From: a virus
Reading direction: 5' to 3' (one strand)
IMG/VR virus record: IMGVR_UViG_3300042301_004732
Location: 1-64,000 of that record
Length of the DNA: 64,000 bases
Program-made: the position numbers and the translations under genes
The notes under the pieces: generated by a model
Seen by the model: the letters and a program-made list of their open reading frames with translations, nothing else
The model's database searches: none
Told to the model about the DNA's origin: nothing
Part shown: positions 7,628-57,266 of the stretch, piece by piece
How the letters are laid out: each line of letters starts with the position of its first letter
How positions within the stretch are numbered: position 1 is the first letter of the stretch

Positions 7628-8014
7628 TTAAAGAATTCTCATTTTCTTGATAAGAGGTAGCAAATAAGAAAAACTTGAATCAAAAAATACTAGAGAGTCA
7701 TTACCCCTTTCGATAAAGGGGATCAAAGAAGAACCGAAAATTTCCGGATTACCCAAATCCTCGCTGTATAAAACGTAAATCTGGTCCTCAAAAATTGATA
7801 CAAATGCGGTCTTTTTGCATTTTTTGAGCTGTTTGATGGCATTCTCTACAATGTTTTTAGCCGCTTTTTTGTTATCGTCAAAGTCCTGATTCCCAGCATA
7901 GTCAAAAGTATAAGCCAAGGCTGCTGCTGCCTCGTTATTTTCCCAGCTAAAACCAATAGGAAAGAAGGTGATTCGACCTAATTTGCTATTGAGTGATATT
8001 TGCTGGTAGCTCAT
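7628..8014 (-). CDS. Hypothetical protein
   Basis: 128 residues with alternating beta-type and helical segments and a helix with KKAAKNIVENAIKQLKKCKK in the middle. No family recognised. It is the first gene after a promoter at 8027-8054 and lies three bases from the sigma-like gene, so it probably leads that operon. Confidence 0.6.
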   Translation of the reverse strand: MSYQQISLNSKLGRITFFPIGFSWENNEAAAALAYTFDYAGNQDFDDNKKAAKNIVENAIKQLKKCKKTAFVSIFEDQIYVLYSEDLGNPEIFGSSLIPFIERGNDSLVFFDSSFSYLLPLIKKMRIL

Positions 8015-8026
8015 ACGTTCTGTCCC

Positions 8027-8054
8027 ACGTTATATTTTAACCGAAAAAAGTCAA
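8027..8054 (-). promoter_or_regulatory. Promoter for the sigma-factor operon
   Basis: Minus strand: TTGACT (8054-8049), a 16-base spacer and TAACGT (8032-8027), twelve bases before the ATG at 8014. The -35 box overlaps the stop codon of the polymerase-like gene upstream, as also happens at 52421. Confidence 0.45.
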
Positions 8055-18876: not shown

Positions 18877-18882
18877 TTTATT

Positions 18883-20532
18883 ATGTTTCCTAAATATTAC
18901 TGGCTTAATGACGATTCACGCAAATTCCTTGAAAAGGACTATTTACAAAGAGGTGTAACGCCAGAGGCGCGGGTGCGACAGATTGCTGAAAGAGCTGAGG
19001 AGGTTCTTGGATTCAAAGGTTTTGCGGATAAGTTTGAGGATTATGTTGCTCGCGGTTTCTTTTCCCTTTCTACCCCCGTTTGGACTAACTTCGGCAACCA
19101 GAGAGGGCTTCCTGTAAGTTGTTTTGGTTCTTATGTTGGTGACAACATGACTTCTATTCTGGAAAAGGTCGGAGAGGTTGGGATCATGTCTAAAATGGGC
19201 GGTGGCACATCCGGCTATTTCGGAGATTTGCGCCCTCGTGGTTCGGCTATCAGTGTTGGTGGAGAGTCTAGCGGTCCGGTTCACTTCATGGAACTTTTTG
19301 ACAAGGTTGCTGATGTTGTAAGTCAAGGCTCGGCGCGGCGTGGCTCGTTTGCAGCCTATCTCCCAATAGAGCATCCCGACGTTGAAGAATTTTTACTTAT
19401 TCGCGGGGAGGGTCATCCTATTCAAAATATGAGCATCGGAGTTACAATTACCGACGAATGGATGAAGGAGATGACGGCGGGAGATAAGAAAAAGCGGTCG
19501 TTGTGGGGCAAGGTTATCAAGAAGCGATTTGAGACGGGGTATCCCTATATTTTCTTTTCTGATACTGTAAACAAAAACGCTCCAAAGGTTTATAAAGACA
19601 AAGGGCTTAAAATAAATCATTCAAACTTATGTTCGGAAATAAATTTAGCTAATAACGAGAATGAAAGTTTTGTGTGCGTTTTGTCCTCTATCAATCTTCT
19701 TCACTGGAATGAGATTGAAAAAACGGATGCAGTAGAAACACTTGTTTATTTTCTTGAAGCGGTAAATGAAGAATTTGTCCAAAAAACGAAAAATGTGAAA
19801 TTCATGTCTGCGCCCCATGAGTTTGCCAAGAATCAGCGTGCGTTGGGCGCGGGCGTGCTAGGCTGGCATTCTTTACTTCAGTCAAAAGGGGTTGCTTTTG
19901 AGTCAATGGAAGCGAAACTACTTAATACAAGAATTTGGAAAGCAATTAGAGCGCGGGCCGATAAAGCTACTGCCGATCTGGCTGAAAAGCTAGGGGAACC
20001 AGAACTGCTTAAGGGTTACAGTCGCCGAAACGTAACAACCCTTGCCGTCGCCCCCACTACTTCCTCTTCCTTTATCCTTGGACAAGTTTCCTCTGGGATT
20101 GAGCCATTGAATAGTAATTACTTCGTCAAAAAAACAGCAAAGGGATCATTTACCTATCGTAACCCATTCTTGGTTAAAATTCTTGAAGAAAAAAATCAGA
20201 ATACCGAAGAGGTATGGAAGACTATTCTTGTAAAAGGTGGCTCCGTTCAACATTTGGATTTCCTTTCCGAGCAGGAAAAAGATTGTTTTAAGACTTTTGG
20301 CGAAATCTCTCAAAAGGAAATCGTTATTCAGAACGCCCAAAGACAGAAATATATTGACCAGTCGGTGAGTCTTAATTTGATGATTCCCGCTACAACCAAA
20401 CCCAAGGATGTTAGCGACCTCCTTATTTTTGGTTGGGAAAACGGAATTAAAACTTTTTACTATCAAAGATCCAGTAACCCAAGTCAAGACTTGGCCCGTA
20501 ATATCATGAGTTGTAAATCATGCGAGGCATAA
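18883..20532 (+). CDS. nrdA: Ribonucleotide reductase class I large subunit (NrdA)
   Basis: 549 residues, short because the N-terminal ATP-cone is absent, so overall activity control by dATP is probably missing. The active site is intact: C80 (PVSCFGSY), N248-C250-E252 (NLCSEI), C265 (FVCVLSSIN). PTTSSSF and SSGIEPLNS are the usual phosphate-binding loops. The C-terminal CKSC (544-547) is the thiol relay to thioredoxin or glutaredoxin. Works with NrdB encoded just upstream. A strong terminator follows. Confidence 0.95.
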   Translation: MFPKYYWLNDDSRKFLEKDYLQRGVTPEARVRQIAERAEEVLGFKGFADKFEDYVARGFFSLSTPVWTNFGNQRGLPVSCFGSYVGDNMTSILEKVGEVGIMSKMGGGTSGYFGDLRPRGSAISVGGESSGPVHFMELFDKVADVVSQGSARRGSFAAYLPIEHPDVEEFLLIRGEGHPIQNMSIGVTITDEWMKEMTAGDKKKRSLWGKVIKKRFETGYPYIFFSDTVNKNAPKVYKDKGLKINHSNLCSEINLANNENESFVCVLSSINLLHWNEIEKTDAVETLVYFLEAVNEEFVQKTKNVKFMSAPHEFAKNQRALGAGVLGWHSLLQSKGVAFESMEAKLLNTRIWKAIRARADKATADLAEKLGEPELLKGYSRRNVTTLAVAPTTSSSFILGQVSSGIEPLNSNYFVKKTAKGSFTYRNPFLVKILEEKNQNTEEVWKTILVKGGSVQHLDFLSEQEKDCFKTFGEISQKEIVIQNAQRQKYIDQSVSLNLMIPATTKPKDVSDLLIFGWENGIKTFYYQRSSNPSQDLARNIMSCKSCEA

Positions 20533-20555
20533 AAAATTAAAATATTAACATAATC

Positions 20556-20583
20556 AACCCGCCTATTCAAAGGCGGGTTTTTT
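20556..20583 (+). terminator. Rho-independent terminator after nrdA
   Basis: Perfect 8-base stem AACCCGCC / GGCGGGTT (20556-20563 and 20572-20579) with an eight-base loop and a T-run to 20583. It insulates the class I RNR operon from the anaerobic one. Confidence 0.9.
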
Positions 20584-20653
20584 GTGCCTAAAGATACCCT
20601 GAAGCATATTTTGCCAACCCCCACCCAGATCTTGTCATCTGGCCCAAACACCC

Positions 20654-20681
20654 TTGATTCTCCCTTAAAATCGTGTAAACT
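20654..20681 (+). promoter_or_regulatory. Promoter of the anaerobic RNR operon
   Basis: TTGATT (20654-20659), a 16-base spacer and TAAACT (20676-20681) with an upstream TG one base away. Nine bases remain before the ATG at 20691, so the mRNA leader would be very short. Confidence 0.55.
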
Positions 20682-20690
20682 TCGTATCCA

Positions 20691-21134
20691 ATGTTAAAGT
20701 ATGCAAGATCGAGTATCGCGTTTCAAGAAGTCCCAAACGAAATTAGTCTATCCTATGAGGTATGCGGATGCCCATTACGCTGCGATGGTTGTCACTCTCC
20801 CGAACTTAGACAAGATAAAGGTTTTCCGTTGGACGCTAGTCGGATTTTCGCCGATTCAATCAAATATGATGGATTGATTTCTTGTGTTTTGTTTATGGGC
20901 GGAGACTGGGTGGTGCAGGACATAATTGGGCTTTTGTCTTTTGTAAAATCCCAAGGATTAAAAACAGCGCTATATTCTGGTTTTGATTCTGTCCCGGACG
21001 ATATTACCTCTAGGTTGGATTATCTGAAGGTCGGTCCATACAAGAAAGAACTCGGCGGGCTGAACTCCCCAGTCACAAACCAGCAATTCTTCCATATTCC
21101 CACCCTGACCAATCTTAACCATCTTTTCCTATGA
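20691..21134 (+). CDS. nrdG: Anaerobic RNR-activating radical-SAM protein (NrdG)
   Basis: 147 residues. The radical-SAM motif CPLRCDGC gives C27-x3-C31-x2-C34 for the [4Fe-4S] cluster. LFMGGDW follows at the GGE-type SAM-binding position. NrdG generates the glycyl radical on NrdD under anaerobic conditions. It overlaps nrdD by ATGA, and the order G-D is reversed from E. coli. Confidence 0.9.
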   Translation: MLKYARSSIAFQEVPNEISLSYEVCGCPLRCDGCHSPELRQDKGFPLDASRIFADSIKYDGLISCVLFMGGDWVVQDIIGLLSFVKSQGLKTALYSGFDSVPDDITSRLDYLKVGPYKKELGGLNSPVTNQQFFHIPTLTNLNHLFL

Positions 21135-22900
21135 TACTTAATCAATCTCAGTTAGATAATAAAATCGCTTTCGTCAAAAACTATATTGGAGCATCCAATG
21201 CGGCCAGCGGCTCAAAGTTTGATGCCAATGCAAACGTATCATCTAAGAATGTAGCGACTCTTGCCGCTGAAATACATAAAGATATCAATATTCAAATCAA
21301 GCGGGCGATTGTCACCCAAAAGATTTCAGAAATGTTCGGAGTAGAATTAGCAGCGGAGTATAACCGACAGATTCAAGATAAGGAAATTTACGTTCATGAT
21401 GAGTCAAATATTTTACTCCCATATTGTGTTAGTATTTCAATGTATCCGCTTTTGACGGATGGTTTGAAAAGTCTTGGCGGTGATTCCGGCCCGCCTAGCC
21501 ATCTATCTTCGTTTTGCGGCTCTTTCGTTAATTTAATGTTCGCTATTTCAAGTCAGTTTGCGGGGGCAGTAGCAGCGGTTGAACTTCTTCTATATTTTAA
21601 TCAATTCGCGGTAAAAGACTATGGGGAGAATTATCTAGAAACTCATACAAAGGAAATAGAGAATCATCTTCAGCATATTGTTTACGCCTTGAATCAGCCC
21701 GCCGCTGCGCGTTCGTTTCAGTCCGTTTTCTGGAATACCTCTATTTTTGATCGGTATTATTTCGATTCAATGTTTGAAGGTTTCGCTTTTCCAGACGGCT
21801 CCCGCCCAGCGTTTGAATCGGTTAATAAACTTCAAAAGTTTTTCATAAAATGGTTTAATAAAGAAAGAGAAAAAGCCGTGCTGACTTTTCCTGTGATTAC
21901 AGCGGCGATTCTTTCCGAAGGTGATGAGCCCAAAGATGTGGAATTTTCTAACTTTCTTGCGGGCGAACTAGCCGAAGGTAATTCGTTTTTTATTTACTCT
22001 TCAGATACCGCCGATTCGTTGTCAAGTTGCTGTCGTTTAAAGTCAAAAATACAGAAGAATACATTCCAGACCTCTCTGGGCGCGGGAGGTGTCGCCACGG
22101 GTTCTATTAATGTTATCACACTGAACATGAATCGACTCATCCAAAAAAATCTGATTCTGTCCGAACAAGTTATGAAAATCCATAAATATCAAGTCGCATA
22201 TAGGGAGCTGATGAAAGGTATGATTAAGGACGGAATGTTGCCCGTTTACACCTCTGGGTTTATAACGTTAGACAAGCAATATTCTACAATTGGTATTAAT
22301 GGCATGGTAGAAGCATCTGAATATATTGGTATTAAACCGTCTAATAATGCAGAGTATAAGGAATGGGTATCAGCCCAGTTAAAAACGATTAACAAACTAA
22401 ACAAGGTCGCTAGTTTGGAATACGGATGTATGTTTAATACCGAATTCGTCCCAGCGGAGAACTTAGGGGTTAAATTTTCCAAATGGGACAAAGAGGATGG
22501 GTTGGTTGTTCCTCGCGATTGCTATAACTCTTATTTTTACCCAGTCGAAGATGATTCAATCAACGCTTTGGATAAATTTATTCTTCATGGTCGCGAAATG
22601 ACTGAATTTTTAGATGGTGGGTCAGCCCTTCATCTTAATTTAGAACAATATCTGACAAAGGATCAGTATTTTAAACTAATCGGCATTGCGATAAAGACGG
22701 GTTGTAATTATTTCTGCACGAATGTAAAAATCACAGTTTGTGAGGATTGCGGGCACATCAACAAGAAGACGGAGTGCCATTGCGTAAAATGCCGGAGCAA
22801 GAACGTTAGTCATGCCACTCGGATTATTGGTTATTTAAAGAAAATTACTTCGTGGTCGGGTGCGCGCAAGACGGAGGAGAAGAAAAGATTTTATCACTGA
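21131..22900 (+). CDS. nrdD: Anaerobic ribonucleotide triphosphate reductase (NrdD)
   Basis: 589 residues. The C-terminal zinc site has four cysteines (C537, C540, C551, C554) and the glycyl radical motif is RIIGYL with G567. LSSCCRLKSK in the middle of the protein carries active-site cysteines. No ATP-cone is seen at the N-terminus. It reduces ribonucleotides without oxygen, complementing NrdAB, and its presence suggests infection of cells in anoxic or fluctuating conditions. Confidence 0.93.
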   Translation: MILNQSQLDNKIAFVKNYIGASNAASGSKFDANANVSSKNVATLAAEIHKDINIQIKRAIVTQKISEMFGVELAAEYNRQIQDKEIYVHDESNILLPYCVSISMYPLLTDGLKSLGGDSGPPSHLSSFCGSFVNLMFAISSQFAGAVAAVELLLYFNQFAVKDYGENYLETHTKEIENHLQHIVYALNQPAAARSFQSVFWNTSIFDRYYFDSMFEGFAFPDGSRPAFESVNKLQKFFIKWFNKEREKAVLTFPVITAAILSEGDEPKDVEFSNFLAGELAEGNSFFIYSSDTADSLSSCCRLKSKIQKNTFQTSLGAGGVATGSINVITLNMNRLIQKNLILSEQVMKIHKYQVAYRELMKGMIKDGMLPVYTSGFITLDKQYSTIGINGMVEASEYIGIKPSNNAEYKEWVSAQLKTINKLNKVASLEYGCMFNTEFVPAENLGVKFSKWDKEDGLVVPRDCYNSYFYPVEDDSINALDKFILHGREMTEFLDGGSALHLNLEQYLTKDQYFKLIGIAIKTGCNYFCTNVKITVCEDCGHINKKTECHCVKCRSKNVSHATRIIGYLKKITSWSGARKTEEKKRFYH

Positions 22901-26851: not shown

Positions 26852-27685
26852 ATGCCCAAACTAGAAATACCGAAAGAAATTCTTTCCGAAATGTCCAAAG
26901 ATTATAATAATGGTCTCTCTGTAGAGAAGCTGGTTTCTAAATACGAAAATAAATATACCGAATGGCAAATTCGTCGTCGCTTAGTTGAAAATGGAACTCC
27001 CATGCGCCATAGGGCGGCTCTTTCTAGAAAATATGACTTAGATCAGCCCTTCTTTAATGTGATTGATACAGAGGAAAAGGCTTATTGGTTGGGGATGATG
27101 TTCGCCGATGGATCAATTTACTCCTCAAAAAAGGGAAAAATGTTTCATTTAACTTTGCAAGGAAGAGACTTGCACCATGTTAAAAAGTTTAAAAAAGCCC
27201 TAAAAGCAGAAGCGCCCGTTCACCATCAGAAAAAGAAAAATCATTATGGTCTTTTTATTTGGAGCGGGTTACTTTACGACTCTTTGGAGCGAGCTGGATG
27301 CATAAGACAAAAAGGGGCCTATATTAGGCTTCCTAAAGAAGATATTCTTCCCAAAAGTCTTGTCCGCCATTTTGTTCGCGGTTATTTTGATGGGAACGGA
27401 TGTTTTTCTTGGAGTAGGTCAAATTTTAGGGTCGCTATCAGAATAGTTTCCAATACTGATTTTGTTGCAGATCTAAAAGAGATTTTTACTTCTGAGGTAG
27501 GCGTCAAACATTACTACCATAAAGAGCCAGTAGAATATCAAGATTATCCCGGCAGATACTATACAAATCTTGATTTCGGAACATATGAAGGGGCGCTTGG
27601 CCTATATCATTATATGTATGACAATGCGACTGTTTTCTTGGAGAGAAAGAAAGAAAAGTTTAACAAATTTATCAAAGAGTCATGA
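26852..27685 (+). CDS. LAGLIDADG homing endonuclease with N-terminal HTH
   Basis: 277 residues. A helix-turn-helix unit occupies about 9-50. Two LAGLIDADG helices follow: AYWLGMMFADGS (77-88) and HFVRGYFDGNG (173-183), each with its catalytic Asp, so the protein is a single-chain enzyme with pseudo-dimeric symmetry. It has its own promoter and overlaps gmd by ATGA. It is a selfish nuclease, free-standing rather than in an intron as far as visible. Confidence 0.85.
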   Translation: MPKLEIPKEILSEMSKDYNNGLSVEKLVSKYENKYTEWQIRRRLVENGTPMRHRAALSRKYDLDQPFFNVIDTEEKAYWLGMMFADGSIYSSKKGKMFHLTLQGRDLHHVKKFKKALKAEAPVHHQKKKNHYGLFIWSGLLYDSLERAGCIRQKGAYIRLPKEDILPKSLVRHFVRGYFDGNGCFSWSRSNFRVAIRIVSNTDFVADLKEIFTSEVGVKHYYHKEPVEYQDYPGRYYTNLDFGTYEGALGLYHYMYDNATVFLERKKEKFNKFIKES

Positions 27686-37254: not shown

Positions 37255-37670
37255 TGAAGTGGTTTATTAAATCTGGCAAGTCCGTTAATCTGAATCCCTC
37301 AAGGTATAAAATTGATTGGAAAAGGAAGGTTAGCGGACCCCAGCTTGCCGTTAAAAATTTTCTTTTCAAATACTGGAAACATGATTTGGTTTTAGAGGAG
37401 ATGGTCATCCCTAAGACGGGTGGCAAGCGATTTGATTTGGTTAATCTTACGACCAAGACTATTATTGAGGTTAGTCCAATATCGGTTCACCTCAAATACA
37501 ATGAGTTCATGCACGGATCGGAAGATGGATATCTAAAAAAGTTAAAGTCAGATTATGACAAAATGCTCGTGGCCGAATTAAACAAATTTAAGTTTATCGA
37601 ATTACACGACAACGAGATAAATAATCTTTCAAAAGAAATGCTTAAGGAGAAGTTCGGACTTGACCTCTAA
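37254..37670 (+). CDS. PD-(D/E)XK-like small nuclease
   Basis: 138 residues from the ATG at 37254, which shares the last A of the RecA-like stop. The pattern GGKRFDLVNLTTKTIIEVSP (D61, E72) looks like the PD-(D/E)XK catalytic core of VSR-like and other phage nucleases, although the usual Lys is replaced by Ser74. A basic N-terminus would bind DNA. It could process recombination intermediates next to RecA. The activity is unproven. Confidence 0.5.
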   Translation: MKWFIKSGKSVNLNPSRYKIDWKRKVSGPQLAVKNFLFKYWKHDLVLEEMVIPKTGGKRFDLVNLTTKTIIEVSPISVHLKYNEFMHGSEDGYLKKLKSDYDKMLVAELNKFKFIELHDNEINNLSKEMLKEKFGLDL

Positions 37671-37683
37671 GAAGCCTATAAAA

Positions 37684-38733
37684 ATGGGGATAGACGATCA
37701 CGTCAGAGCGATAGCTTTGATCAAAGCAGGCTGGTTATGTCAGGGTATCGCCGCCGAGTTTGATTGTTCTTGGCCTGTCATTTCTAGAATCGCGGCCAAA
37801 TATGATTTGAAATTTTCACAATATAAAAAAGAATTTTCTTACAGACAAGAACAAGAAATTGTAAGAGATTATTTGGACGGGGAATCACTTGAATCACTTT
37901 TCTCTAAGAATAAAACGGGGACAGAAAACATTAAAAGGGTTCTGGAAAAATACGAAATTCCGCTAAGAGATAATAAGATAAGCGAAGAAAAAAAGAACGA
38001 AGTCCAATATCTATATGAGGAAACGGATTTAGATATAACAAACATAGAAAAACAGACGAAAGTTGGATATACCTCTATTTTAAAATTAGCAAAAAAAAGA
38101 GGATGGGCAAGAAAAATCTGGAAAAGAAAATTCTTCAAAGATGTTTGGGCCTTTGATCTTACTAAAGAAGAGGTTGAAAAGAAGTTAAACGAAGTAAGAA
38201 AAAAGCAATCGGAAAATTCTTCTGGTGAGAACAACCCGATGTATGGAAAACCCACTCCGAACGGGGCGGGCAACGGATGGAAGGGCCGATACAAGGGACG
38301 ATATTTTAGGAGCCTCCAAGAAGCATCGTTCATGATAGAAAAAGATGATGCTGGGATTGCTTTTGAAAACGGGGAAACTATGACGATCCCTTACGAATTT
38401 ATGGGCCGGAAGAGAACCTACCGACCAGACTTTATTATCGGTGATACTGTTTATGAATTGAAGCCGAAAAAATTAATGAAGTCTGCTGTTATTTTGGCGA
38501 AAAAAGAAGCGGCAGAAAAATATTTGGCAGACAAGGGAATGAAATATGTATTGATGGAGCAAAAATACGATTTCAACAAGATAAAGGTTGCGGTGGCTCT
38601 CAAACATATTATCCTTGCCGCAGATTACATGGATCGTCTTCTTTACAGAATCTTTACGGAGGGTGGTATGCTTGTAGATACAACTTATGAAACTTTTAAA
38701 AAAGCAAGGGAAAGCAGAAGGAATGAAAAATGA
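37684..38733 (+). CDS. PD-(D/E)XK homing endonuclease with three HTH repeats
   Basis: 349 residues from the ATG at 37684; an upstream TTG at 37660 is less convincing. Three helix-turn-helix units lie at about 3-42, 51-92 and 99-141. Then SGENNPMYGKPT (180-191) is a NUMOD3-like DNA-binding linker, and TYRPDFIIGDTVYELKP gives the catalytic D249, E258 and K260. This is a mobile homing nuclease inserted between recombination genes. It overlaps the next gene by ATGA. Confidence 0.8.
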   Translation: MGIDDHVRAIALIKAGWLCQGIAAEFDCSWPVISRIAAKYDLKFSQYKKEFSYRQEQEIVRDYLDGESLESLFSKNKTGTENIKRVLEKYEIPLRDNKISEEKKNEVQYLYEETDLDITNIEKQTKVGYTSILKLAKKRGWARKIWKRKFFKDVWAFDLTKEEVEKKLNEVRKKQSENSSGENNPMYGKPTPNGAGNGWKGRYKGRYFRSLQEASFMIEKDDAGIAFENGETMTIPYEFMGRKRTYRPDFIIGDTVYELKPKKLMKSAVILAKKEAAEKYLADKGMKYVLMEQKYDFNKIKVAVALKHIILAADYMDRLLYRIFTEGGMLVDTTYETFKKARESRRNEK

Positions 38734-43065: not shown

Positions 43066-44613
43066 ATGGCATCAAAATCCCTTTTTTCAGTTGAAATTGA
43101 ACAGTCAATCCTTGCAATTCTCTTACAATACCCCGAATCCTATGTAGAAATCCCCTTCATCAACTCAAAAGATTTCTCTCGGCAGAACTCCCCGATCTTC
43201 GCCGTTATATCAAACATTGTTGAGAATAAGGGTCGCCCGGATGAAATTGTGGTAGCCGAAAAACTGAAATCCCTCGGGATTACATTGGAGGGGCTTGAGG
43301 TGGGTGATTTCTGCTCTGCATTGAAAATCCGCCCTGTCGATAAACGGAATATTTTGGATTTGGCTAAAGCCTTAAAGAAGAAAACTCTCATCCGAACCAT
43401 CCACGAGAACGCAATCAAAGTTCAGAAGGAGGTTTTGGAAAATGAGGATAAATCGGCGAAGGAATTGGTTGGAATCGCGGATAAGTATTTGGGAGAATCT
43501 TTAATTAGCATTACCCAGAATGAGCGTGAGGCGAAGAACCTTCTGGAAGAACTTCCTTCCGTGATTGAAGAAATGGGCAATCCGGAAAATATCAGTGATT
43601 TTATCAACATGCCGTATAAAACATGGAATGATATTATCGGGCCACTTCGTCCGGGACAGATTTACATGTGGGCGGCTCGACAAGGATCAAAAAAATCTAC
43701 TTTACTCCTTGATATTACGCGAGATATAGCAGCGGCCAATCCAGACAAGGAAGATATGGCTGTATTATTTTTAGATTCCGAGATGACAATTAATGACGCC
43801 ATCGTTCGTTATGTTGCGGGAAATATTGGTTGTCCACCATTCTTGATGGATTCTAAGAAATGGAAATTTTCGAAAGAGTGGGCTCCCAAAATTAATGAGG
43901 AGGTTCGGCGCATTCAAAACTTAAAACATAAGAATATTTGGTTTGAACCCATCGGGAATATGGGAATGTCAGAGGTTGAGAAATTTGTCAAACGATGGAA
44001 ATTGACTAAGTGCGGTCGTTCACGTTCTTCTGTTATCGTATATGATTATTTCAAGTTGAATAACAACGACAAGAAAGAGCTTAATTCAAAAGAGGGAGAG
44101 CACAGTCAGTCCTACCAGAAGATCGAAATAATTAAAGATCTTTGTGACTGGACAACCTCCCCGCTTCTTTCTGCTCTACAACAAAATCGTTCTGGTGATA
44201 TTCTTAGTAAAGATGGTCCGGACGATTCCTCGGCATCGAATTCCCTCAGTGATAGGATCGGATGGTTGGTTGCAGTTCTGGCTATTCTTCGTGGGCGCAC
44301 TCCTGATGAAATGCTGAATGATTCAACTCCGGAGATGAAAGCCCCGTCAAATAAAATGATTTTTCAGAAGACTCGCTACCTGTGGGAACATGGTCCAGCG
44401 TTTTTGAATTACATTAGGGTTGGCAAGGGTAAAGACGTTAAATATACCCCGAACTTCATGAATTTCGATATTACCAACTTCAAAGTGACCGATTGCGGCA
44501 CGCAGGACCAATGGCTTATTAAGACGGGTCAGCAGGCCGTAAAAATCAATAAAGCAGTTAGCGAATCGAAACTTATTAAGGAGGCGGATAAGGGTGAAGA
44601 ACCTGCATTTTGA
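43066..44613 (+). CDS. dnaB: DnaB-type replicative helicase
   Basis: 515 residues. The N-terminal domain (VEIEQSILAILLQYPE, residues 9-24) matches DnaB. The RecA-like domain has PGQIYMWAARQGSKKST (Walker A, 196-212; the usual Gly before Lys is Lys209), VLFLDSEM, SVIVYDYFKL (Walker B), SALQQNR (glutamine finger region) and a late acidic insertion. It should unwind DNA at the fork with the primase at 45899. An upstream TTGACA at 43021 may drive it, but the -10 box is unclear. Confidence 0.85.
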   Translation: MASKSLFSVEIEQSILAILLQYPESYVEIPFINSKDFSRQNSPIFAVISNIVENKGRPDEIVVAEKLKSLGITLEGLEVGDFCSALKIRPVDKRNILDLAKALKKKTLIRTIHENAIKVQKEVLENEDKSAKELVGIADKYLGESLISITQNEREAKNLLEELPSVIEEMGNPENISDFINMPYKTWNDIIGPLRPGQIYMWAARQGSKKSTLLLDITRDIAAANPDKEDMAVLFLDSEMTINDAIVRYVAGNIGCPPFLMDSKKWKFSKEWAPKINEEVRRIQNLKHKNIWFEPIGNMGMSEVEKFVKRWKLTKCGRSRSSVIVYDYFKLNNNDKKELNSKEGEHSQSYQKIEIIKDLCDWTTSPLLSALQQNRSGDILSKDGPDDSSASNSLSDRIGWLVAVLAILRGRTPDEMLNDSTPEMKAPSNKMIFQKTRYLWEHGPAFLNYIRVGKGKDVKYTPNFMNFDITNFKVTDCGTQDQWLIKTGQQAVKINKAVSESKLIKEADKGEEPAF

Positions 44614-44627: not shown

Positions 44628-45695
44628 TTAGATAAAATATTCTATCTCGGGATTCAAGCTATTGTTTTTAGCGACAATATTACAAATTTCAATAAATCTA
44701 TTCACTTCTAACTCCTGCTTCATTCTATTAATATCCCAAATACATAATACAACATTGTCTTTCACATATCCCTTTCCTGAGTCAATTCTGTCTATACTCA
44801 AAACATTTTTATGGTTTGGTTTCCACGATAATAACTCACCGGAATAAAAACAAAAACCTTTCTGTTTTTTGAAGATTTGTAACATATACTCTAAATCTAT
44901 ATTAAAATCCCAATTCATTTTCAAACATCGACTCTTACCAAATTTAATTTTCTGTTTCAACATTTGCTCTAGTATTAATCTTTTGTTTTTATTTTCATTT
45001 TTTCGATCTAGAATTTTTTTATATTTATAAGTGATTTTAAGTTTTTCGCATCTATGGATAATGGAAATGTCACTTCGGATGAGAGTTTTGGAGATTTCAT
45101 CAATATCAATATTATTATCGAGCATATCAATCAATAGGCGGTCTTCCTCTTCACACCAAGACCGGCCACCCTTGGGGTTTCTAAACCCATATTGCCGACA
45201 TATATATTCCACGGTCTCTAGGGGCAACTCCGTTTTGATGCTTATAATCTTTTTTGTAAATTTTTTATTTTCTAACATGTTTTTAATGTCAGATAAAAGG
45301 CTATCGGAATATTTTCTGGAGGAAATAGAACTAGTCTGATATCCCTTGTCCGAGCCATTGAACTCTGATTTTCTGACTAGCCCGAGTTTTTTTGAGACAC
45401 CCTCTGCTTCATAAGTGGTAAGCCCTAATTTAGACCCAATTTCTGACATTGGTAAATTCTCGAAAAATAAATTTCTAAATTTTAAAACAAATGAATCTTC
45501 AAATGTTACCCCTTTTTTGAATTTATATTTCTTTCTGATCCCTATTTTGCCCTTTCTTGCGTCTATGGCGGGGCGCGTAGTCCCCATCTCGACAGCAATT
45601 TCAAATACCCCCTTGCCTTTTTCGCACAGAGATATAAGTTTTTCATCCAGTTCCTTTGTCCACTTAATTTTTGGTAGATTTGATGTGTTTTTCAT
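44628..45695 (-). CDS. HNH homing endonuclease with four HTH repeats
   Basis: 355 residues from the ATG at 45695. Four helix-turn-helix units (about 12-53, 64-106, 127-171, 180-221) precede the nuclease: CFYSGELL, LSIDRIDSGKGYVKDNVVLCIW and NRMKQEL, an HNH of the type with SIDRIDS...GY. It is antisense to its neighbours, between the helicase and primase genes. It overlaps a small ribbon-helix-helix gene that starts upstream. Confidence 0.8.
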   Translation of the reverse strand: MKNTSNLPKIKWTKELDEKLISLCEKGKGVFEIAVEMGTTRPAIDARKGKIGIRKKYKFKKGVTFEDSFVLKFRNLFFENLPMSEIGSKLGLTTYEAEGVSKKLGLVRKSEFNGSDKGYQTSSISSRKYSDSLLSDIKNMLENKKFTKKIISIKTELPLETVEYICRQYGFRNPKGGRSWCEEEDRLLIDMLDNNIDIDEISKTLIRSDISIIHRCEKLKITYKYKKILDRKNENKNKRLILEQMLKQKIKFGKSRCLKMNWDFNIDLEYMLQIFKKQKGFCFYSGELLSWKPNHKNVLSIDRIDSGKGYVKDNVVLCIWDINRMKQELEVNRFIEICNIVAKNNSLNPEIEYFI

Positions 45696-45816
45696 ATTGT
45701 TCAGTAATCCCGTTTGAAATAATAGTAACAAGCTTAAGGCCGCTTAACTTAGCGATCTCTCTTAGCTTGGCGTCTGTTTCTGGCTTTAACTCCAAATTTA
45801 ATCTTTTGATGCTCAT
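45664..45816 (-). CDS. Small ribbon-helix-helix (CopG/Arc-like) regulator
   Basis: 50 residues, read directly on the minus strand. The start MSIKRLNLELKPETDAKLRE, followed by IAKLSGLKLVTIISNGI, is the strand-helix-helix layout of CopG/Arc repressors. Its 3' end overlaps the 5' end of the HNH gene in another frame. Direct repeats (TGGTGTA twice) lie just before its start. It is likely an autorepressor that also limits the endonuclease. Confidence 0.65.
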   Translation of the reverse strand: MSIKRLNLELKPETDAKLREIAKLSGLKLVTIISNGITEQYEKHIKSTKN

Positions 45817-45898: not shown

Positions 45899-46810
45899 AT
45901 GAATAAGATTGATTTGGAAAAATTAGAAAACAAAGTAACCCAATCGGACGGTTCTTGGGTTTGTTTTTGTCCTGCGTGTGGAGAAGAGGGGCGTAATTTA
46001 CGGTCTAAGAATCACTTGCGCGTTTGGCCCGACTTGCGTTTCAATTGTGTCGTTAGCACGGGGGACCGCCAGCACAACTCAAGAATTCTCCAATTAGTCG
46101 GAACCGAATCGGACGGAATACTGACTCATTATACCGCCCGAACTGAAGAGCCCAAAATTAAACAACCCGCGACTTGGCCGCTATCCATTCTCGACAAGCT
46201 GATTTTTGATTATTCCTATTTCGAATCCCGAGGAATCAGTGCGGAGACTCAAAAGCATTTCCGAATGGGCGTGGCGAGCAGTGGGCAGTTGAATGGCCGG
46301 GCGATTCTCCCTATTTTATCCCCGCAGAAAGATAAAATTATCGGGTTCACGGGCCGACTCATAAATTATACTAAATGGCACAAGGAAAACAAGATACCCA
46401 AATGGAAACATCTCAATCCGTCCGGCAGTTTCCTGCTTGTTGGTGATGAATTTTCTATTCGCGAATCCCGAACAATCCTCATAACGGAAGGCCCAGCAGA
46501 CATTCTAGCACTATATGAAGCCGGAATACGGAATACAATCTGCTTATTCGGAACGACAATCAGTTCAAAGCAACTTGGTTTTCTAATTAAGAGCAATCCA
46601 TTAAAAATTGTAATTGGATTGAATAACGAACCCGGAAATAAAAATATTGGCGGGATCGCTGCCGAAAAGCTCCGGAAGACTCTTTTGAATTATTTCTCGG
46701 AAGAAAGGATAATTATTGCGCTCCCGAAGGCTAAGGACTACAATGACTGGCTTTTGGAAAAAAATGGAAAATCAGAGCTTGACGAATACCGAAAAACATG
46801 GCTTCCTTGA
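45899..46810 (+). CDS. DNA primase (TOPRIM type)
   Basis: 303 residues. A zinc-binding start (C22, C24, C27, then a Cys near 50; CFCPACGEEG) is followed by a TOPRIM domain with ILITEGPADILALYEAG (Glu and Asp) and VIGLNNEPGNKN (normally the DxD motif, here NNE). It lacks a helicase domain and should synthesise RNA primers for lagging-strand replication, using the DnaB-like helicase encoded upstream. The replaced Asp may reflect a divergent active site. Confidence 0.75.
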   Translation: MNKIDLEKLENKVTQSDGSWVCFCPACGEEGRNLRSKNHLRVWPDLRFNCVVSTGDRQHNSRILQLVGTESDGILTHYTARTEEPKIKQPATWPLSILDKLIFDYSYFESRGISAETQKHFRMGVASSGQLNGRAILPILSPQKDKIIGFTGRLINYTKWHKENKIPKWKHLNPSGSFLLVGDEFSIRESRTILITEGPADILALYEAGIRNTICLFGTTISSKQLGFLIKSNPLKIVIGLNNEPGNKNIGGIAAEKLRKTLLNYFSEERIIIALPKAKDYNDWLLEKNGKSELDEYRKTWLP

Positions 46811-50997: not shown

Positions 50998-51771
50998 ATG
51001 ATTGATAATAAAAATATTACAGCGATATGGTATTCTGATTCATCTCAACGCGCGATTAATGTGTGGTGGCCCGAGAAGGATTGCGCGCCTGATGGACCTC
51101 AGTCAATTGTCAGTCTGGCGAAAAAGGCAGGACTTAAGGAGGTGTATTTTGTGTCAACCCGTTTTTACGATATGATTGCGGCTTGGAAACTCTGCGAGGA
51201 GAACGACTTACAGTTGATTTTCGGGCTTGAAATGTGGGTGTGTAGCAATCCAGAAGACCATACCGAGGCGTCTATTGCGGACGAGTCCAAGGTAATTGTT
51301 TTTATGCGGAATGGTGACGGATATAAAGACCTGATAAAATTGTATTCTAAAGTTTATACGAACATAAAGAATAAATATTATAAATTCAGGGGCTCTTATA
51401 ATATTCTGAAAGAGCACTGGACCGATAATCTTTTATTGTCCGTTCCATTCTTCGATTCGTTTCTGGCGAGGAATACTCTGAATTTCGGCAGTGCGATTGT
51501 TCCCGATTTTCCAACCCGCCCGATTTTCATGCAGGAGGTTAATTCTGGTCTTCCGTTTGAACCCCTTATTAATGAAGCTCTTATGAATTTTACAAAGGGG
51601 GAATACGAAATTATGAAAACTAAGACGATTTACTATCCGGATTATTCTGATAGTAAGGCATGGACGGTATTTAGAACCATTAAGGAGCGCAGTAGCTTTA
51701 ATAAGCCCCAACTTGATTATTGCTGTTCAGAGAACTTTTGCCTGTCTGACTATTTGGAGGTAGCAAAATGA
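50998..51771 (+). CDS. Stand-alone PHP-like domain of DNA polymerase III alpha
   Basis: 257 residues. SIVSLAKKAGLKEVYFVSTRFYDMIAAWKLCEENDLQLIFGLEMWVC (about 37-83) follows the start of the PolIII PHP domain (normally ...HGN...A..FY..CKK.GIKPI.G.E.YV). The metal-binding histidines are missing (IWYSDSSQRA where HxH is expected), so it is probably structural. The next gene overlaps by ATGA and encodes the exonuclease, while the polymerase core is further downstream. Confidence 0.65.
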   Translation: MIDNKNITAIWYSDSSQRAINVWWPEKDCAPDGPQSIVSLAKKAGLKEVYFVSTRFYDMIAAWKLCEENDLQLIFGLEMWVCSNPEDHTEASIADESKVIVFMRNGDGYKDLIKLYSKVYTNIKNKYYKFRGSYNILKEHWTDNLLLSVPFFDSFLARNTLNFGSAIVPDFPTRPIFMQEVNSGLPFEPLINEALMNFTKGEYEIMKTKTIYYPDYSDSKAWTVFRTIKERSSFNKPQLDYCCSENFCLSDYLEVAK

Positions 51772-52424
51772 TAGGATCAGACTTGCTTCGATATAAGAAA
51801 GATCAGCTTTTTGTATGCCCCGACATGGAGGCTAGTGGACTTAACCTTATTCATACGCTGCCATTTCAAATTGGTTATGTTACTTTTACTTTAGAAAAAA
51901 ATCTAACCAAGCAGAGTCGTTATATTTGGTGGCCGCAGTTACGTATGAGTGCGGACGCTGCTCGAATTACCCGATTTGATTATAATTTTTATAAAGAAAG
52001 GGCAGAAGACCCGAAGAAAGTATTGGAAGAGTTTGAAGATATTCTCTACTCAAAATCTTATAAGTGTGTATCCCAGAACTGGTTAGGGTATGATTCCATG
52101 ATTGTTAATGCTTGGCGGCGGGCACTCGGATTAAAACCCCGATACGATTACCTCTACCAACCCTTTAAAGTTTACGATACTTTATGTTTGTCGCGGGCGA
52201 TTAAAAAGGGTATTAAACCTGACGCAAGTTCTTCAAATGCTTTTCTGGCATGGAGTTACAAAATGCAGAGTATACATCAGAAGGGTTTAAAATGTTCTCT
52301 AGGGGCCATGGGCAAAGAGTTGGGGGTAGAATTTGATGCTGGGAATCTGCACGAGGCACTATCCGATGTTTTATTGAATGTTGAGGTTTTCAGAAAGCAG
52401 ATCTGGCAGTTGGAATTGGTTTGA
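51768..52424 (+). CDS. DnaQ-type 3'-5' proofreading exonuclease
   Basis: 218 residues. DEDDh motifs: D19-x-E21 (PDMEASGLN), NWLGYDSM and HEALSDVLLN (His and Asp). As in epsilon subunits and in PolC, it should proofread for the polymerase. It lies between the PHP-like and polymerase genes, in the order PolC places its exonuclease domain. The TTGACA of the next promoter overlaps its stop. Confidence 0.8.
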   Translation: MIGSDLLRYKKDQLFVCPDMEASGLNLIHTLPFQIGYVTFTLEKNLTKQSRYIWWPQLRMSADAARITRFDYNFYKERAEDPKKVLEEFEDILYSKSYKCVSQNWLGYDSMIVNAWRRALGLKPRYDYLYQPFKVYDTLCLSRAIKKGIKPDASSSNAFLAWSYKMQSIHQKGLKCSLGAMGKELGVEFDAGNLHEALSDVLLNVEVFRKQIWQLELV

Positions 52425-52449
52425 CAAGATAAAGGAAATCGGTTAATAA
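52421..52449 (+). promoter_or_regulatory. Promoter of the HNH endonuclease gene
   Basis: TTGACA (52421-52426), a 17-base spacer and TAATAA (52444-52449), 37 bases from the ATG at 52487 with GGAG in the leader. Here a normal leader is seen, unlike other promoters in the window. Confidence 0.6.
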
Positions 52450-52486
52450 GTAGAATCATAAAATTATAAAGATGGAGAATATTTAG

Positions 52487-54163
52487 ATGAGTGATATTTG
52501 GGATGGGGTTGAAATAAGTGTCAAGCAGGACGTTTCATCAGGAAGAGGTTCTTCTTGGTCTAAAGAAGATGAGAAATTCCTAAGAGATAACCATGATCTT
52601 CTTGGTAGAAAAGAATGCGCCAAAAAACTAGGGAGAACATTTTCGGCAGTTTGCTGTAAAGCTAAAAAGATGGGGTTAAACGTTGATACGAAAATAGATC
52701 AAGGGATTGTAGATTTTCTAAAAGAGAATTATTCCAAATTAGGTCCAGCTAAATGTGCCGAAATCTTGGGAATGCCTAAAAATAAAGTATATTCAATTGC
52801 TACATCCAGAAAAATACATGGTGGAAGAAACTTTGAATGGCATGACTATGAAATTCAATATTTGAAAGACAACGTTTATAAAAAGAGTCTATATGAGATA
52901 TCTTCCTTCTTACAAAGAACACAAAGTAGTATAAAAAATAAACTTCACAAATTAGATATTTTAGAGGATAGAAAATGGAAAGATGAAGAAAATATTTTAT
53001 TTAAAGAAATTTATAGTAAAAAAACTCTAGATGAATTGGTTGATATCTTTAAAAGGACAAAATCCTCCTTACAGGGTCATGCATTCAAATTAGGAATTAC
53101 TGATAAGAATAAAAATTGGTCTGATGAGGATGATTCGTTACTTAAAAAAATTTACCCAACTAAAGAAACTGGTTTTTGTGCAATTTTACTAAAAACAACA
53201 CAAAGAGCAGTTGCTTCTAGAGCGTTTACACTAGGATTAGAAAAAGGTAAAATTGTTTACGAGCAGGATGATATGAAATCATGCTCAAAATGTAAACAAT
53301 ATATACCAATTAATAGCTATTTATTCCAAAATTCTAAGAATTTATATTCAGCGGCCTGCAAAGAATGTCAAAATAAAAAAGCTAAAAATAGGGGAATTAC
53401 TTTCCCCCCAGAACAAGAGACAGAAATAAAAAGATTATTCTCTCTGGGTATGGGATCACCCGAAATCGCCGAAACGACAAAATTTAGTGGTAGATCTAAA
53501 ATATCTCAGTTTTTAAAACAAAATGGACTCAGAAGGACATCGGCTTTTCGCTTCAAACAGAAATTTAAAGACAGAGTTGGTAAAAAATTTAATTTGTTAA
53601 CCGTTTTAGACAGACATGTTGATGATAAGGGAAGGACTTCGTATACTTGTTTATGCGATTGCGGGAACACAGCAGTGATCAAAGGAGACGGCGTTTTCTC
53701 TGGAAAAACCAGAAGTTGTGGTTGTCTTTTATCCAGAAAGGGTATTGATAACCCGAACTGGGGAGGTGCCGGGGAGATATCGGGTCAAGTATTTTCTTCA
53801 ATTAGGGGTGGTGCGGCATCTAGAAATTTAGAATTTAATATAAGTGTCGAATATATTTGGGATTTATTTCTAAAACAAAATAGAAAATGTGCCATCTCTG
53901 GATTAGATTTATGTTTCGCTATAAATGACCAAGAAAAAACAGCCTCATTAGATAGAATTGATTCTAACCTTGGATATACCCAACAAAATATTCAATGGGT
54001 TCATAAATATGTGAATTTTCTCAAACGCGAAATACACGATATTGATTTTTTTACTATTGTAAAACATGTTTATGAGTTTAAAAAATTGAATGAATATAGC
54101 CCAAGCGATTTATTAGAAGCGTTTAAACAAAGCCCCTATTTTTCTAGATTTAATAATGAATAA
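52487..54163 (+). CDS. HNH homing endonuclease with five HTH repeats
   Basis: 558 residues. Five helix-turn-helix units (about 22-64, 69-110, 116-158, 163-204, 209-251) repeat every 46-47 residues, with Trp at 24, 118, 164 and 211. A CxxC-type zinc segment (CSKC...CKEC, 266-294) follows, then a further HTH, a GKKFNLLTVLDRHVD...CDCGN...TRSCGC segment seen in other phage endonucleases, and the HNH itself (CAISGLDL, SLDRIDSNLGYTQQN). It interrupts the PolIII genes and has its own promoter. A selfish nuclease. Confidence 0.8.
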   Translation: MSDIWDGVEISVKQDVSSGRGSSWSKEDEKFLRDNHDLLGRKECAKKLGRTFSAVCCKAKKMGLNVDTKIDQGIVDFLKENYSKLGPAKCAEILGMPKNKVYSIATSRKIHGGRNFEWHDYEIQYLKDNVYKKSLYEISSFLQRTQSSIKNKLHKLDILEDRKWKDEENILFKEIYSKKTLDELVDIFKRTKSSLQGHAFKLGITDKNKNWSDEDDSLLKKIYPTKETGFCAILLKTTQRAVASRAFTLGLEKGKIVYEQDDMKSCSKCKQYIPINSYLFQNSKNLYSAACKECQNKKAKNRGITFPPEQETEIKRLFSLGMGSPEIAETTKFSGRSKISQFLKQNGLRRTSAFRFKQKFKDRVGKKFNLLTVLDRHVDDKGRTSYTCLCDCGNTAVIKGDGVFSGKTRSCGCLLSRKGIDNPNWGGAGEISGQVFSSIRGGAASRNLEFNISVEYIWDLFLKQNRKCAISGLDLCFAINDQEKTASLDRIDSNLGYTQQNIQWVHKYVNFLKREIHDIDFFTIVKHVYEFKKLNEYSPSDLLEAFKQSPYFSRFNNE

Positions 54164-56741
54164 TTTCACTTCCAATTTCTCTAAATATACCATTGAAAAT
54201 TATGGTTACATTCGCCTGCCCGAGATCCGAATTACCGATGAACAGAAGAAAAATCTAAATCTTCCCGATGATGTTTCCAATCTAGAATTTTGCCGCGCAC
54301 TCGCTAGACAAGGCTGGAAAGAGCGCTGCAAACATGTTAAGAAAGAAGATTATCCTAAGTATAAAGAACGCATTGAATACGAACTCGAAATTCTAAACGA
54401 GTTGGGATTCATTGATTACATGTTACTTGTTTGGATGGTTATCAATAAAGCTCGTGAGTTAGGGGTTTTTATTGATTACGGGCGCGGATCAATCGGTGGC
54501 TGTTGTATTGCTTGGTTGTTGAAAATTACTGGGTTCCCCGTCGATCCAATTCGTCACGGCCTCTTCTTTGAACGCTTTGTAAGCAGGGCTCGTAATGGCA
54601 AGAAGATGATCGACGGTAAGTTGTTCTTAAAGGGTGACTTACTGGCCGACGCAGACGTTAACCTAGGTAATGGCAGGGATTTACTAGTTGCTTGGCTCAA
54701 GGAAATTTATCCTAATTGTGTATCTAAGATTTCCAATATCTCTACATTTACCACTAAGATTCTCCTCAAGGACGTTTACAAATCTTTAGAAGAAGTTAAC
54801 GAGGATGAGGCCCGTCGTGTGGCTGATATGATTGAAGTCCGATTCGGGGTCGCTCAATCTATTGATGAAGCATATAAGGAAAGTAAGGAATTCAAACAGT
54901 GGGCGGATGAACACCCCGACACCGTTTCTGTTTGCAAAAGACTATGCGAAACCATGCGCGGCACATCCAGTCACGCTTCCGGTTATCTCGTATCCTTTTA
55001 TGAATTAACTGATTTGATCCCAATTGAGATTAATAAAGAGGGTGATATTGTCAGCTCGTATGATATGAAAATCGTCAGCAATTTTGCGACGAAATTAGAC
55101 CTTCTTTCCCTCACCACAAATGCAATTATTAAACGAGTCGCCGATATTATCCCCGAGAAGATTGATGAGATTAATCTAGATGATGATCCATTTATTTATG
55201 AGAAATTTCAGGATAGTAAACTCCTACCTTATGGTCTTTATCAAATTTCGGCTGATTGCGCATATGGAGTAACAGAAGCGATTAAACCTAAAAATGTTAA
55301 TGAGTTGAGTGACATTAATGCGCTGGCCCGGCCCGGAAGTTTGAGTTATGTAAATTCCTACAAAAACAATAATGCGGAGGCTGTTCATAAAGTATTCGAA
55401 CCCATTCTATCCCAAACCCGTAATGTTCCGCTTTATCAAGAGCAGTTAATGAAAATGTCGGTGGCCATTGGATTTACAAATGAGGAAGCAGAGGTGATTC
55501 GTAAAATTGTAGGTAAGAAGGACTTGCAAAAAGTAAAGGAATGGGAAAAGAAAATTTATGATAAGTGCGAGGAAAAGGGGTTTGATAAAACTGTAGCCGA
55601 CGCGATTTGGAAGCTTCTAAACGAGTCAGCTTCGTATTCATTCAACAAGGCGCATTCTATCTCGACATCCTATCTATCCGCATTAACGGTATATTTGAAA
55701 TATAAATATCCCTTGGAATGGTATTGGTCTTGTCTCGTTGGAACAAAAGATTTGGCTAACCCCTTAGAAGAAATTACTGCGATTCAAAAAGAACTAGAAA
55801 TTTTCGGTATTAAACTACTCCCTCCAGATATTATTAAGAGTGAGTATGATTATACCATGGAGAATGGGGGTATTCGAACGGGATTAAGCAGTGTTCGAAA
55901 TCTTTCGGATGCCAATCTAGAGCGGTTAAAGTCTTTCAGGGCGACTGTTACTAATAAATTCGATCTCTTCCTAAGTATTCAGAATGCAAAGTTACCGCTA
56001 GGTGTTGTATCCTCTCTTATTCTAAGTGGCGGGTTCGACAGTGTTTCTAATTCAGGAAGAAATAAAACGTTACTCGATTTCGAAATATGGAATGAGCTGA
56101 CACCCAGAGAATTACCCATCATTAACAATCTCGGCTCTCGCTTCAATTTTGACTTAATTGAGATTCTGAAACGGGCCTCCACCGACCTGAAGGACGAAAA
56201 AGGCAAACCGCTGATTAAAGAATCCCGCCTGAATACCCTCCGAACCAAGACTAAACCGTATATTTTAAAGTTCAAATATAATGAACGCTTCAGCGACCTA
56301 ACGACTTATTTGGCCGAAAATCATTACCTCGGCTTCTCCTACTCTCACACTCTGAAAGGCATTTACAGCAAACATATAAACAACCTTCTGAGCTTAAAAG
56401 AACTCCGAACCGCCCCGGACAGAAAGGAAAATTACATCTCCGTAGTTCAGATCGGAGAGGTCGAGAAGAGAACCAGTCGGAATAAAAAAGAGTATGTCCG
56501 GTATACTCTGAAAGACGATTCAGACAGTTTGACCGTTATGGATTTCCAACTTGACAATCGGGGCGGAAAGAAGTTTTCTGAAGATATGATTTGCGTCTTT
56601 CATGTCTCAAAAAAGAAAACTGAAACTGGGGATTTCTTATATTTTGTCTCTGACATCGTGGAGCAAGAAGTCCCGACCGTCTTGAAAACGAGTGTTGTGA
56701 GGAAAGAACTGGAAGACAAGCAAAGCAAGGAAAATAAATAA
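54156..56741 (+). CDS. dnaE: DNA polymerase III alpha catalytic protein (DnaE-like)
   Basis: 861 residues. The nucleotidyltransferase core is intact: DYGRGSIGG (108-115), DADV (D165, D167), and KLDLL (D315), the three catalytic aspartates. SSHASGYLVS, KIVGKKD and SFNKAHSISTSYLSALTVYLK are the usual finger/thumb segments. The C-terminal ~130 residues include VVQIGEVEKR...RYTLKDDSDSLTVMDF, an OB-fold. The N-terminal PHP domain is absent and encoded separately. The start overlaps the end of the HNH gene. Confidence 0.9.
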   Translation: MNNFTSNFSKYTIENYGYIRLPEIRITDEQKKNLNLPDDVSNLEFCRALARQGWKERCKHVKKEDYPKYKERIEYELEILNELGFIDYMLLVWMVINKARELGVFIDYGRGSIGGCCIAWLLKITGFPVDPIRHGLFFERFVSRARNGKKMIDGKLFLKGDLLADADVNLGNGRDLLVAWLKEIYPNCVSKISNISTFTTKILLKDVYKSLEEVNEDEARRVADMIEVRFGVAQSIDEAYKESKEFKQWADEHPDTVSVCKRLCETMRGTSSHASGYLVSFYELTDLIPIEINKEGDIVSSYDMKIVSNFATKLDLLSLTTNAIIKRVADIIPEKIDEINLDDDPFIYEKFQDSKLLPYGLYQISADCAYGVTEAIKPKNVNELSDINALARPGSLSYVNSYKNNNAEAVHKVFEPILSQTRNVPLYQEQLMKMSVAIGFTNEEAEVIRKIVGKKDLQKVKEWEKKIYDKCEEKGFDKTVADAIWKLLNESASYSFNKAHSISTSYLSALTVYLKYKYPLEWYWSCLVGTKDLANPLEEITAIQKELEIFGIKLLPPDIIKSEYDYTMENGGIRTGLSSVRNLSDANLERLKSFRATVTNKFDLFLSIQNAKLPLGVVSSLILSGGFDSVSNSGRNKTLLDFEIWNELTPRELPIINNLGSRFNFDLIEILKRASTDLKDEKGKPLIKESRLNTLRTKTKPYILKFKYNERFSDLTTYLAENHYLGFSYSHTLKGIYSKHINNLLSLKELRTAPDRKENYISVVQIGEVEKRTSRNKKEYVRYTLKDDSDSLTVMDFQLDNRGGKKFSEDMICVFHVSKKKTETGDFLYFVSDIVEQEVPTVLKTSVVRKELEDKQSKENK

Positions 56742-56744
56742 ATC

Positions 56745-57266
56745 ATGAGTGATAACCCGTTGTATAGTGATGTTAAAATTGATGGAAAGCCCTATCAGAA
56801 GGGCGACTACGCCAAATATGCCGTTTGGAACGATAAGGAAATTAAAGGTTTCTTTGGTGAGAACCGATGGCTTTCTAATTTTTGGCCCGTAAATATTTTT
56901 GGCTTTCCATCGGTTGAAAACGCATATATGGCGGCGAAGATCGTTCTGGGCGACAGAGAGTATTTTAAGACCTGTTCCCCGACCGAGGCTAAGAAGAATT
57001 GGAGGAAGTTCAAACTTAAAGACGCCGCCCCGTCTGATTGGGATGCGCGAAAATTTGATGTTATGAGTCGGTGTATTTTCGAGAAGTTTTTGGTAGATTT
57101 GGAATTACGCTCAAAATTGCTGAATACTAGAGACAAATATTTGGAGGAGTTAAATTTTTGGGGTGATACTTACTGGGGCGTAGATATTAAAAAGGGTGGG
57201 AAAAATAATCTTGGGAAAATACTTATGGGGGTCAGAGACTTCTGGAAGAATCAAAATAAGGTTTGA
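56745..57266 (+). CDS. NADAR domain protein (YbiA-like)
   Basis: 173 residues. Pattern FFGENRWLSNFWPV, PSVENAYMAAKIVLGD, WRKFKLKD, KFDVMSRCIFEKF and WGDTYWG...GGKNNLGKILMGVRDFW is characteristic of the NADAR/YbiA superfamily. Some members hydrolyse N-glycosidic bonds in nucleotide or ADP-ribose-type substrates, and some reverse DNA ADP-ribosylation. In a phage this could undo NAD- or ADP-ribose-based host defence. That is inference; the catalytic residues were not individually checked against a structure. Confidence 0.75.
   Translation: MSDNPLYSDVKIDGKPYQKGDYAKYAVWNDKEIKGFFGENRWLSNFWPVNIFGFPSVENAYMAAKIVLGDREYFKTCSPTEAKKNWRKFKLKDAAPSDWDARKFDVMSRCIFEKFLVDLELRSKLLNTRDKYLEELNFWGDTYWGVDIKKGGKNNLGKILMGVRDFWKNQNKV

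Follow-up and report, generated by a model that had tools for sequence, protein, structure and literature searches.

How a replicative DNA polymerase comes to be encoded in pieces is the question raised by a 64,000-nt stretch of viral DNA (hereafter the window), which covers positions 1 to 64,000 of the 69.7-kb IMG/VR record IMGVR_UViG_3300042301_004732. A preliminary description of the window had read a DNA polymerase III alpha distributed over separate PHP, DnaQ-type exonuclease and polymerase genes, with an HNH endonuclease gene between the last two, and had suggested the fission of a PolC-like ancestor, perhaps promoted by the endonuclease. The gene layout was read correctly. PHP, exonuclease, HNH and polymerase occupy four distinct reading frames on the plus strand, each a gene of its own at the positions first assigned (Table 1), and the HNH frame does lie between exonuclease and polymerase. 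The PHP and exonuclease frames overlap by 4 nt and the HNH and polymerase frames by 8 nt, while 62 nt separate exonuclease from HNH. A 191-kb IMG/VR contig, IMGVR_UViG_3300042868_010004, is identical to the window over the 16.6 kb that was fetched. We propose, with a probability of about 0.75, that the locus encodes a three-subunit C-family replicative polymerase of the DnaE type, belonging to widespread uncultured tailed phages, in which DnaE is split and its PHP part is supplied in trans.

We scanned IMG/VR with the PHP, exonuclease (EXO) and polymerase (POL) sequences and performed one genome-contig scan, which together returned several hundred relatives. The best ones were fetched and, after removal of duplicates, 193 distinct loci were classified; as such searches return the nearest relatives first, the counts describe conservation within the clade rather than frequency among all phages. 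In 186/193 loci PHP, EXO and POL are separate genes in the same order on one strand (the cassette), which rules out an assembly accident as the source of the separation. POL itself is in two pieces in 10 of these 186. Six other loci show only POL or EXO-POL, most of them beginning at or near a contig end, and in the last one, L339, EXO lies elsewhere and PHP is fused to POL. The first scans gave 147 loci with a complete gene set; in 112 of them PHP either overlaps EXO or is at most 60 nt away from it, and the same holds for EXO and POL in 94.

The polymerase core contains the palm, thumb, fingers, HhH and OB-fold domains expected of DnaE. It matched the Pfam families DNA_pol3_alpha (1.8e-44), DNA_pol3_finger and HHH_6 (1.8e-13); the HhH and OB fold follow the fingers, residues 743-838 match OB folds, and the alignment of the core with alpha extends to 1074. 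The catalytic aspartates D165, D167 and D315, already named in the preliminary description, are present in the window and in 131/131 relatives, and a median ratio of non-synonymous to synonymous substitution rates (dN/dS) of 0.033 between close pairs indicates strong purifying selection. One DnaE feature is absent from the chain: the PHP domain is not N-terminal in the same polypeptide, being a separate gene here and in the 186 split loci. Against solved structures, the polymerase profile scored 404 bits with Taq alpha, 343 with E. coli alpha and 42 with PolC, and 11/11 members scanned gave strong matches to DnaE models and marginal or no matches to PolC models. In maximum-likelihood trees, the cassette polymerases formed a single clade (support 100) that falls on the DnaE side and is remote from PolC. 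The preliminary description had proposed such a phylogeny as a check, with a grouping with DnaE as grounds for refutation, and the outcome contradicts a PolC origin of the core. The predicted core structure (predicted local distance difference test, pLDDT, 89.8) aligned to alpha from residue 260/271 on, with Z-scores of 29-37 for DnaE and 20-29 for PolC.

The predicted PHP structure (pLDDT 91.6) found its best fold match in residues 4-248 of E. coli alpha (Z 21.1, 231 residues, root-mean-square deviation 3.1), compared with Z 16-18 for PolC and about 11 for free-standing PHP phosphoesterases. According to these models, the PHP protein corresponds to the PHP domain of DnaE, is nearer to DnaE (Z about 21) than to PolC, and is whole and uninterrupted, since it aligns across alpha 4-248. 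Because the PHP alignment ends at alpha residue 248 and that of the core begins at 260/271, the two proteins appear to tile one DnaE chain, with the predicted break at about alpha residue 250-260. In the phage DnaE family phrog_405, too, they match successive stretches (positions 62-273 and 326-1067), and the PHROGs matched included no stand-alone PHP family of similar length. Profiles, trees and fold comparison together place both core and PHP with DnaE.

These data make the fission of a PolC (PHP-exonuclease-polymerase) ancestor very improbable. In its favour, the genes follow an order similar to that of the PolC domains, and the exonuclease profile matches both the exonuclease domains of PolC and other DEDDh exonucleases. 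However, the core and PHP are of the DnaE type, and the PHP is whole, whereas in PolC the exonuclease is inserted inside the PHP domain (PMC3919608); neither that arrangement within one chain nor a PolC-type core was found. The cassette exonucleases form a clade of their own, not joined with the PolC exonuclease, in a tree whose depth is weakly supported and too weak for naming the source of the gene. PolC origin was thus rejected for core and PHP on the basis of the bit scores (404 versus 42), the tree and the PHP fold. What survives of the earlier proposal is the fission of a single-chain C-family polymerase, but not its PolC ancestry; likewise, the PHP-exonuclease-polymerase order is real, but it is not simply that of PolC, where the exonuclease sits within the PHP.

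The search for relatives with fused genes, also suggested earlier, yielded one. L339 (IMG/VR 3300005330_000014, 208 kb) has an exonuclease of the cassette family at 3023-3673 and, 1.2 kb beyond it, a single 1138-aa PHP-polymerase frame (4905-8321). Residues 3-250 of this frame match the PHP profile and residues 259-1111 the POL profile; the two meet 8 residues apart, which locates the junction of the two parts. It belongs to the cassette clade (support 100). No second fused relative of this kind was found in a single-sequence scan, which reaches close relatives only. Because proteins that are separate elsewhere are fused in L339, this locus argues that PHP and core interact. In all split loci that have the three genes complete, the exonuclease gene lies between PHP and polymerase, but in the fused L339 it lies elsewhere; from this we infer that the placement of this gene, rather than the endonuclease, accompanied the split.

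The absence of the PHP histidines, noticed in the preliminary description, holds for the window and extends to the family. Of 143 sequences, practically all have lost the His ligands by deletion or replacement, while acidic residues persist at a few positions, and the metal motif of active PHP proofreaders, HHDHEH[C/H]DH, is not found in the window PHP family. Yet the PHP is under strong purifying selection (median dN/dS 0.064, close pairs). Since the catalytic site is lost while the protein remains strongly constrained beside its former partner, the simplest role for the PHP is that of a structural subunit. In E. coli, the dead PHP domain stabilises alpha, and mutations in its degenerate site reduce stability and polymerase activity (PMC3666897); the epsilon-binding site of alpha also sits on the PHP domain (PMC3919608). 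The separate PHP could instead be a decaying leftover, or could have taken a new job such as DNA or host-factor binding, with the core working alone. The lost ligands and a dN/dS about twice that of exonuclease and polymerase would fit this, but the value is still 0.064, a full-length PHP stands beside exonuclease and polymerase in 186 loci, the fold is kept and the protein is fused to the polymerase in L339; we regard a leftover or repurposed PHP as unlikely.

The exonuclease is a DnaQ-like DEDDh enzyme by its active site: D19, E21, D109, H195 and D200 are kept in 147/147 relatives. Its Pfam matches are weak, and in relatives it is recognised more clearly as phrog_192. The median dN/dS of close pairs was 0.036, again indicating strong purifying selection.

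Three observations weigh against the proposed replicase. First, the cassette exonuclease has no epsilon-type C-terminal PHP-binding tail (median of 17 residues after HxxxxD, versus 76 in E. coli DnaQ), so its contact within the replicase must differ from that of epsilon. Second, L339 is sister to all split cassettes in the best tree with a weak support of 63, and thus may be a secondary fusion. Third, the window and its nearest relative by polymerase, L016, show discordant identities (polymerase 79%, PHP 67%, exonuclease about 35%). This discordance points to exchange near the exonuclease/polymerase site between close phages, and to partners that can be exchanged.

The protein encoded at that site in the window carries the motif C..SG...DRID...N..WVH, resembles HNH/endonuclease VII enzymes and contains helix-turn-helix (HTH) repeats. 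With a nuclease motif, DNA-binding repeats and a position beside an essential gene, it is, as judged from its sequence, probably a free-standing homing endonuclease. Its G+C content at third codon positions (GC3) is 0.24 versus 0.39-0.45 in the neighbouring genes. L016 has a related HNH gene (31%) between exonuclease and polymerase, L015 has at the same place a LAGLIDADG gene unrelated to the window HNH, and most other relatives have no nuclease there, so that the occupants range over HNH, LAGLIDADG and others. In the window, L016 and L015, the endonuclease frame ends across the polymerase start codon with a 4-8 nt overlap; it therefore sits at a gene boundary and breaks no frame. This location agrees with the reported tendency of phage homing endonucleases to lie next to essential genes and at the borders of genetic exchange (PMC10448857, PMC2988022). 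Given its absence from most relatives, its alien GC3 and a position that breaks no frame, the endonuclease is most likely a later guest at an existing exonuclease/polymerase boundary and not a part of the replicase.

An endonuclease insertion could itself have caused the split, in the way that nrdA of Aeromonas phage Aeh1 was divided by mobE. Gene splitting by phage endonucleases is known (PMC2988022), and the window does have an HNH gene at the exonuclease/polymerase boundary. But most relatives are split without a nuclease there, which also speaks against the earlier suggestion that the insertion promoted fission; moreover, the occupants differ, the window HNH is alien in GC3, and such an insertion alone does not explain why the exonuclease lies between PHP and polymerase. 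We rejected the endonuclease as the simplest cause of the split and consider it improbable, leaving a slight chance that an ancestral endonuclease accompanied the split and has since disappeared throughout the clade.

Further probable homing endonucleases in the window are a LAGLIDADG protein (26852-27685), a NUMOD3/TnsA-like nuclease protein (37660-38733) and an HNH protein (44628-45731) with 35% identity over 89 aa to the HNH protein of the cassette. Other proteins also lie between cassette genes. In one subgroup, a conserved 71-85 aa protein (MASLDDIYDMIQKLDDSNIEYLLITIQKGKKNGKADVF...) stands between exonuclease and polymerase (L067:5769-5984, and at the corresponding position in about 35 further loci) and is possibly a further subunit. 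In L020 (1263-2312), a 349-aa protein between PHP and exonuclease resembles, by eye, IMP dehydrogenase/GMP reductase.

In L118, L140, L141, L180, L196, L281 and L315, the polymerase core itself is split, with an apparent split intein. In the L118 group, the N part ends ...SFNK/C... (the slash marks the junction) followed by a stretch of about 95 aa that matches Hint/intein families weakly; the C part starts with about 37 aa ending ...SN/SHSIS, and the break falls inside the conserved FNK-SHS motif. Split inteins inside the polymerase of some relatives raise the idea that PHP and core are rejoined after translation. However, PHP and core start and end at domain edges with no extra residues, and no intein or Hint match was found in the window PHP, exonuclease or polymerase; joining of the window parts in this manner was rejected, and its likelihood is negligible. 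A Bacteroidota DnaE of the order exonuclease-PHP-polymerase was also rejected as the fused ancestor, its order being different and its exonuclease only distantly similar.

Under the split-DnaE reading, an ancestral phage DnaE would have been divided where PHP meets palm, at about alpha residue 250-260, and the PHP and core parts would have come to flank a DEDDh exonuclease gene. The PHP, its metal site lost, would most likely dock on the core at the place that this domain takes in DnaE and stabilise it as a scaffold; it may also help to place the exonuclease, which would proofread in trans from a docking place of its own. The core would polymerise together with the phage DnaB-like helicase and DnaG-like primase, and the HNH endonuclease would be a later selfish insert at the exonuclease/polymerase boundary. 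The data themselves show DnaE ancestry, the gene order, predicted folds, the state of the active sites, purifying selection and one fused relative; we infer both the complex and the stoichiometry implied in speaking of three subunits.

Table 1. Genes of the replication region of the window, with the evidence for each assignment
Feature	Position	Strand	Evidence
Stand-alone PHP protein, 257 aa	50998..51771	+	Pfam PHP E=3.7e-10; predicted fold; metal site lost
DEDDh (DnaQ-like) 3'-5' exonuclease, 218 aa	51768..52424	+	phrog_192; active-site residues
HTH-repeat and HNH endonuclease, 558 aa	52487..54163	+	phrog_3322/1035 endonuclease matches; HNH motif
DnaE-type polymerase core without PHP, 861 aa	54156..56741	+	Pfam, NCBIfam, model; D165, D167, D315
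DnaB-like replicative helicase	43066..44613	+	NCBIfam DnaB 3.4e-19; same replication region
DnaG-like primase	45899..46810	+	NCBIfam dnaG 3.9e-15; same replication region

The DnaB-like helicase and DnaG-like primase genes stay upstream of PHP in most relatives checked. No match to a family A polymerase was found in the records of 12 relatives, which may be fragments, so the three-gene polymerase is probably the only one of these phages. No sliding clamp was recognised in the same 12 records, where a divergent clamp could also be missed; a host clamp is the likely partner. Isolated phages gave 0 matches among 50,697 records to the PHP or exonuclease of the window or to the three more divergent relatives tried, and the core matched only phage DnaE among them, at below 60% identity. 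Cassettes also occur in metagenome bins named Flavobacteriaceae, Saprospiraceae and others; these probably represent phage contigs that were grouped with bacterial ones, and they give a hint of Bacteroidota hosts. Directly behind the polymerase, after a 3-nt gap, the window encodes a NADAR-domain protein (56745-57266; Pfam 6.3e-19), which suggests NAD/ADP-ribose metabolism or counter-defence. Ribonucleotide reductase small and large chains, a 4Fe-4S (NrdG-like) protein and an anaerobic NrdD are adjacent at 17878-22900, so that aerobic and anaerobic ribonucleotide reductase systems stand together in this phage.

The PHP domain has been stated to be present in all C-family polymerases (PMC12926913), with PHP, palm, thumb and fingers as four domains "within a single polypeptide" (PMC3666897); the variants reported include PolC without exonuclease and Bacteroidota DnaE1 with an N-terminal exonuclease (PMC3919608). 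In the open-access literature we found no report of a separately encoded PHP. We lean towards the view that the cassette phages are a large clade with the first known C-family polymerase having an obligate separate PHP subunit, created when an exonuclease gene came between PHP and core by a route reminiscent of, yet independent of, the exonuclease insertion of PolC. Replication enzymes in pieces (PMC2988022) and phage DnaE genes split elsewhere are already known. In the isolated Alicyclobacillus phage MMB025 (L004), DnaE is split elsewhere into 735 + 286 aa with an endonuclease between, and in the isolated Rossellomorea phage phiT1 (L247) into 573 + 469 aa with a small open reading frame between. 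The cassette is an example of a replicase that was divided at the edge of a domain and has remained under selection throughout a large clade; it also offers a marker for a phage group of which the searched collection contains no isolate. The natural separation of a dead PHP lets PHP and exonuclease be added or withheld in trans, making stability, polymerisation and proofreading directly measurable.

Among known systems, the phage DnaE-like Pol III alpha of phrog_405 (e.g., Moorella phage MTATph1 and Streptomyces phage Warpy) shares the core and PHP family with the cassette, but there both parts belong to a single chain of about 1000-1240 aa and are not separated by an exonuclease gene. The E. 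coli Pol III core (alpha and epsilon) likewise combines a dead PHP, a separate DEDDh proofreader and a DnaE polymerase; there, however, the PHP is part of alpha and epsilon has a long PHP-binding tail, which the cassette exonuclease does not have. In PolC of Bacillota, PHP, exonuclease and polymerase work together and the exonuclease is encoded between the PHP and polymerase parts, as in the cassette order, but all within one chain with the exonuclease inside the PHP, and the cassette core and PHP are distant from it in sequence, tree and fold. Bacteroidota DnaE1 (PMC3919608) is also a DnaE polymerase with a DEDDh exonuclease of its own, in one chain ordered exonuclease-PHP-polymerase, in contrast to the separate PHP-exonuclease-polymerase genes described here. 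Finally, nrdA with mobE in Aeh1 and gene 43A/43B of phage 25 (PMC2988022) are replication enzymes made from separate pieces with endonucleases beside the break, and in phage 25, as proposed for the cassette, the gene may have been split before the endonuclease arrived. Those enzymes are of other families and are split in one or few phages, whereas the cassette is a conserved three-gene order across a large clade.

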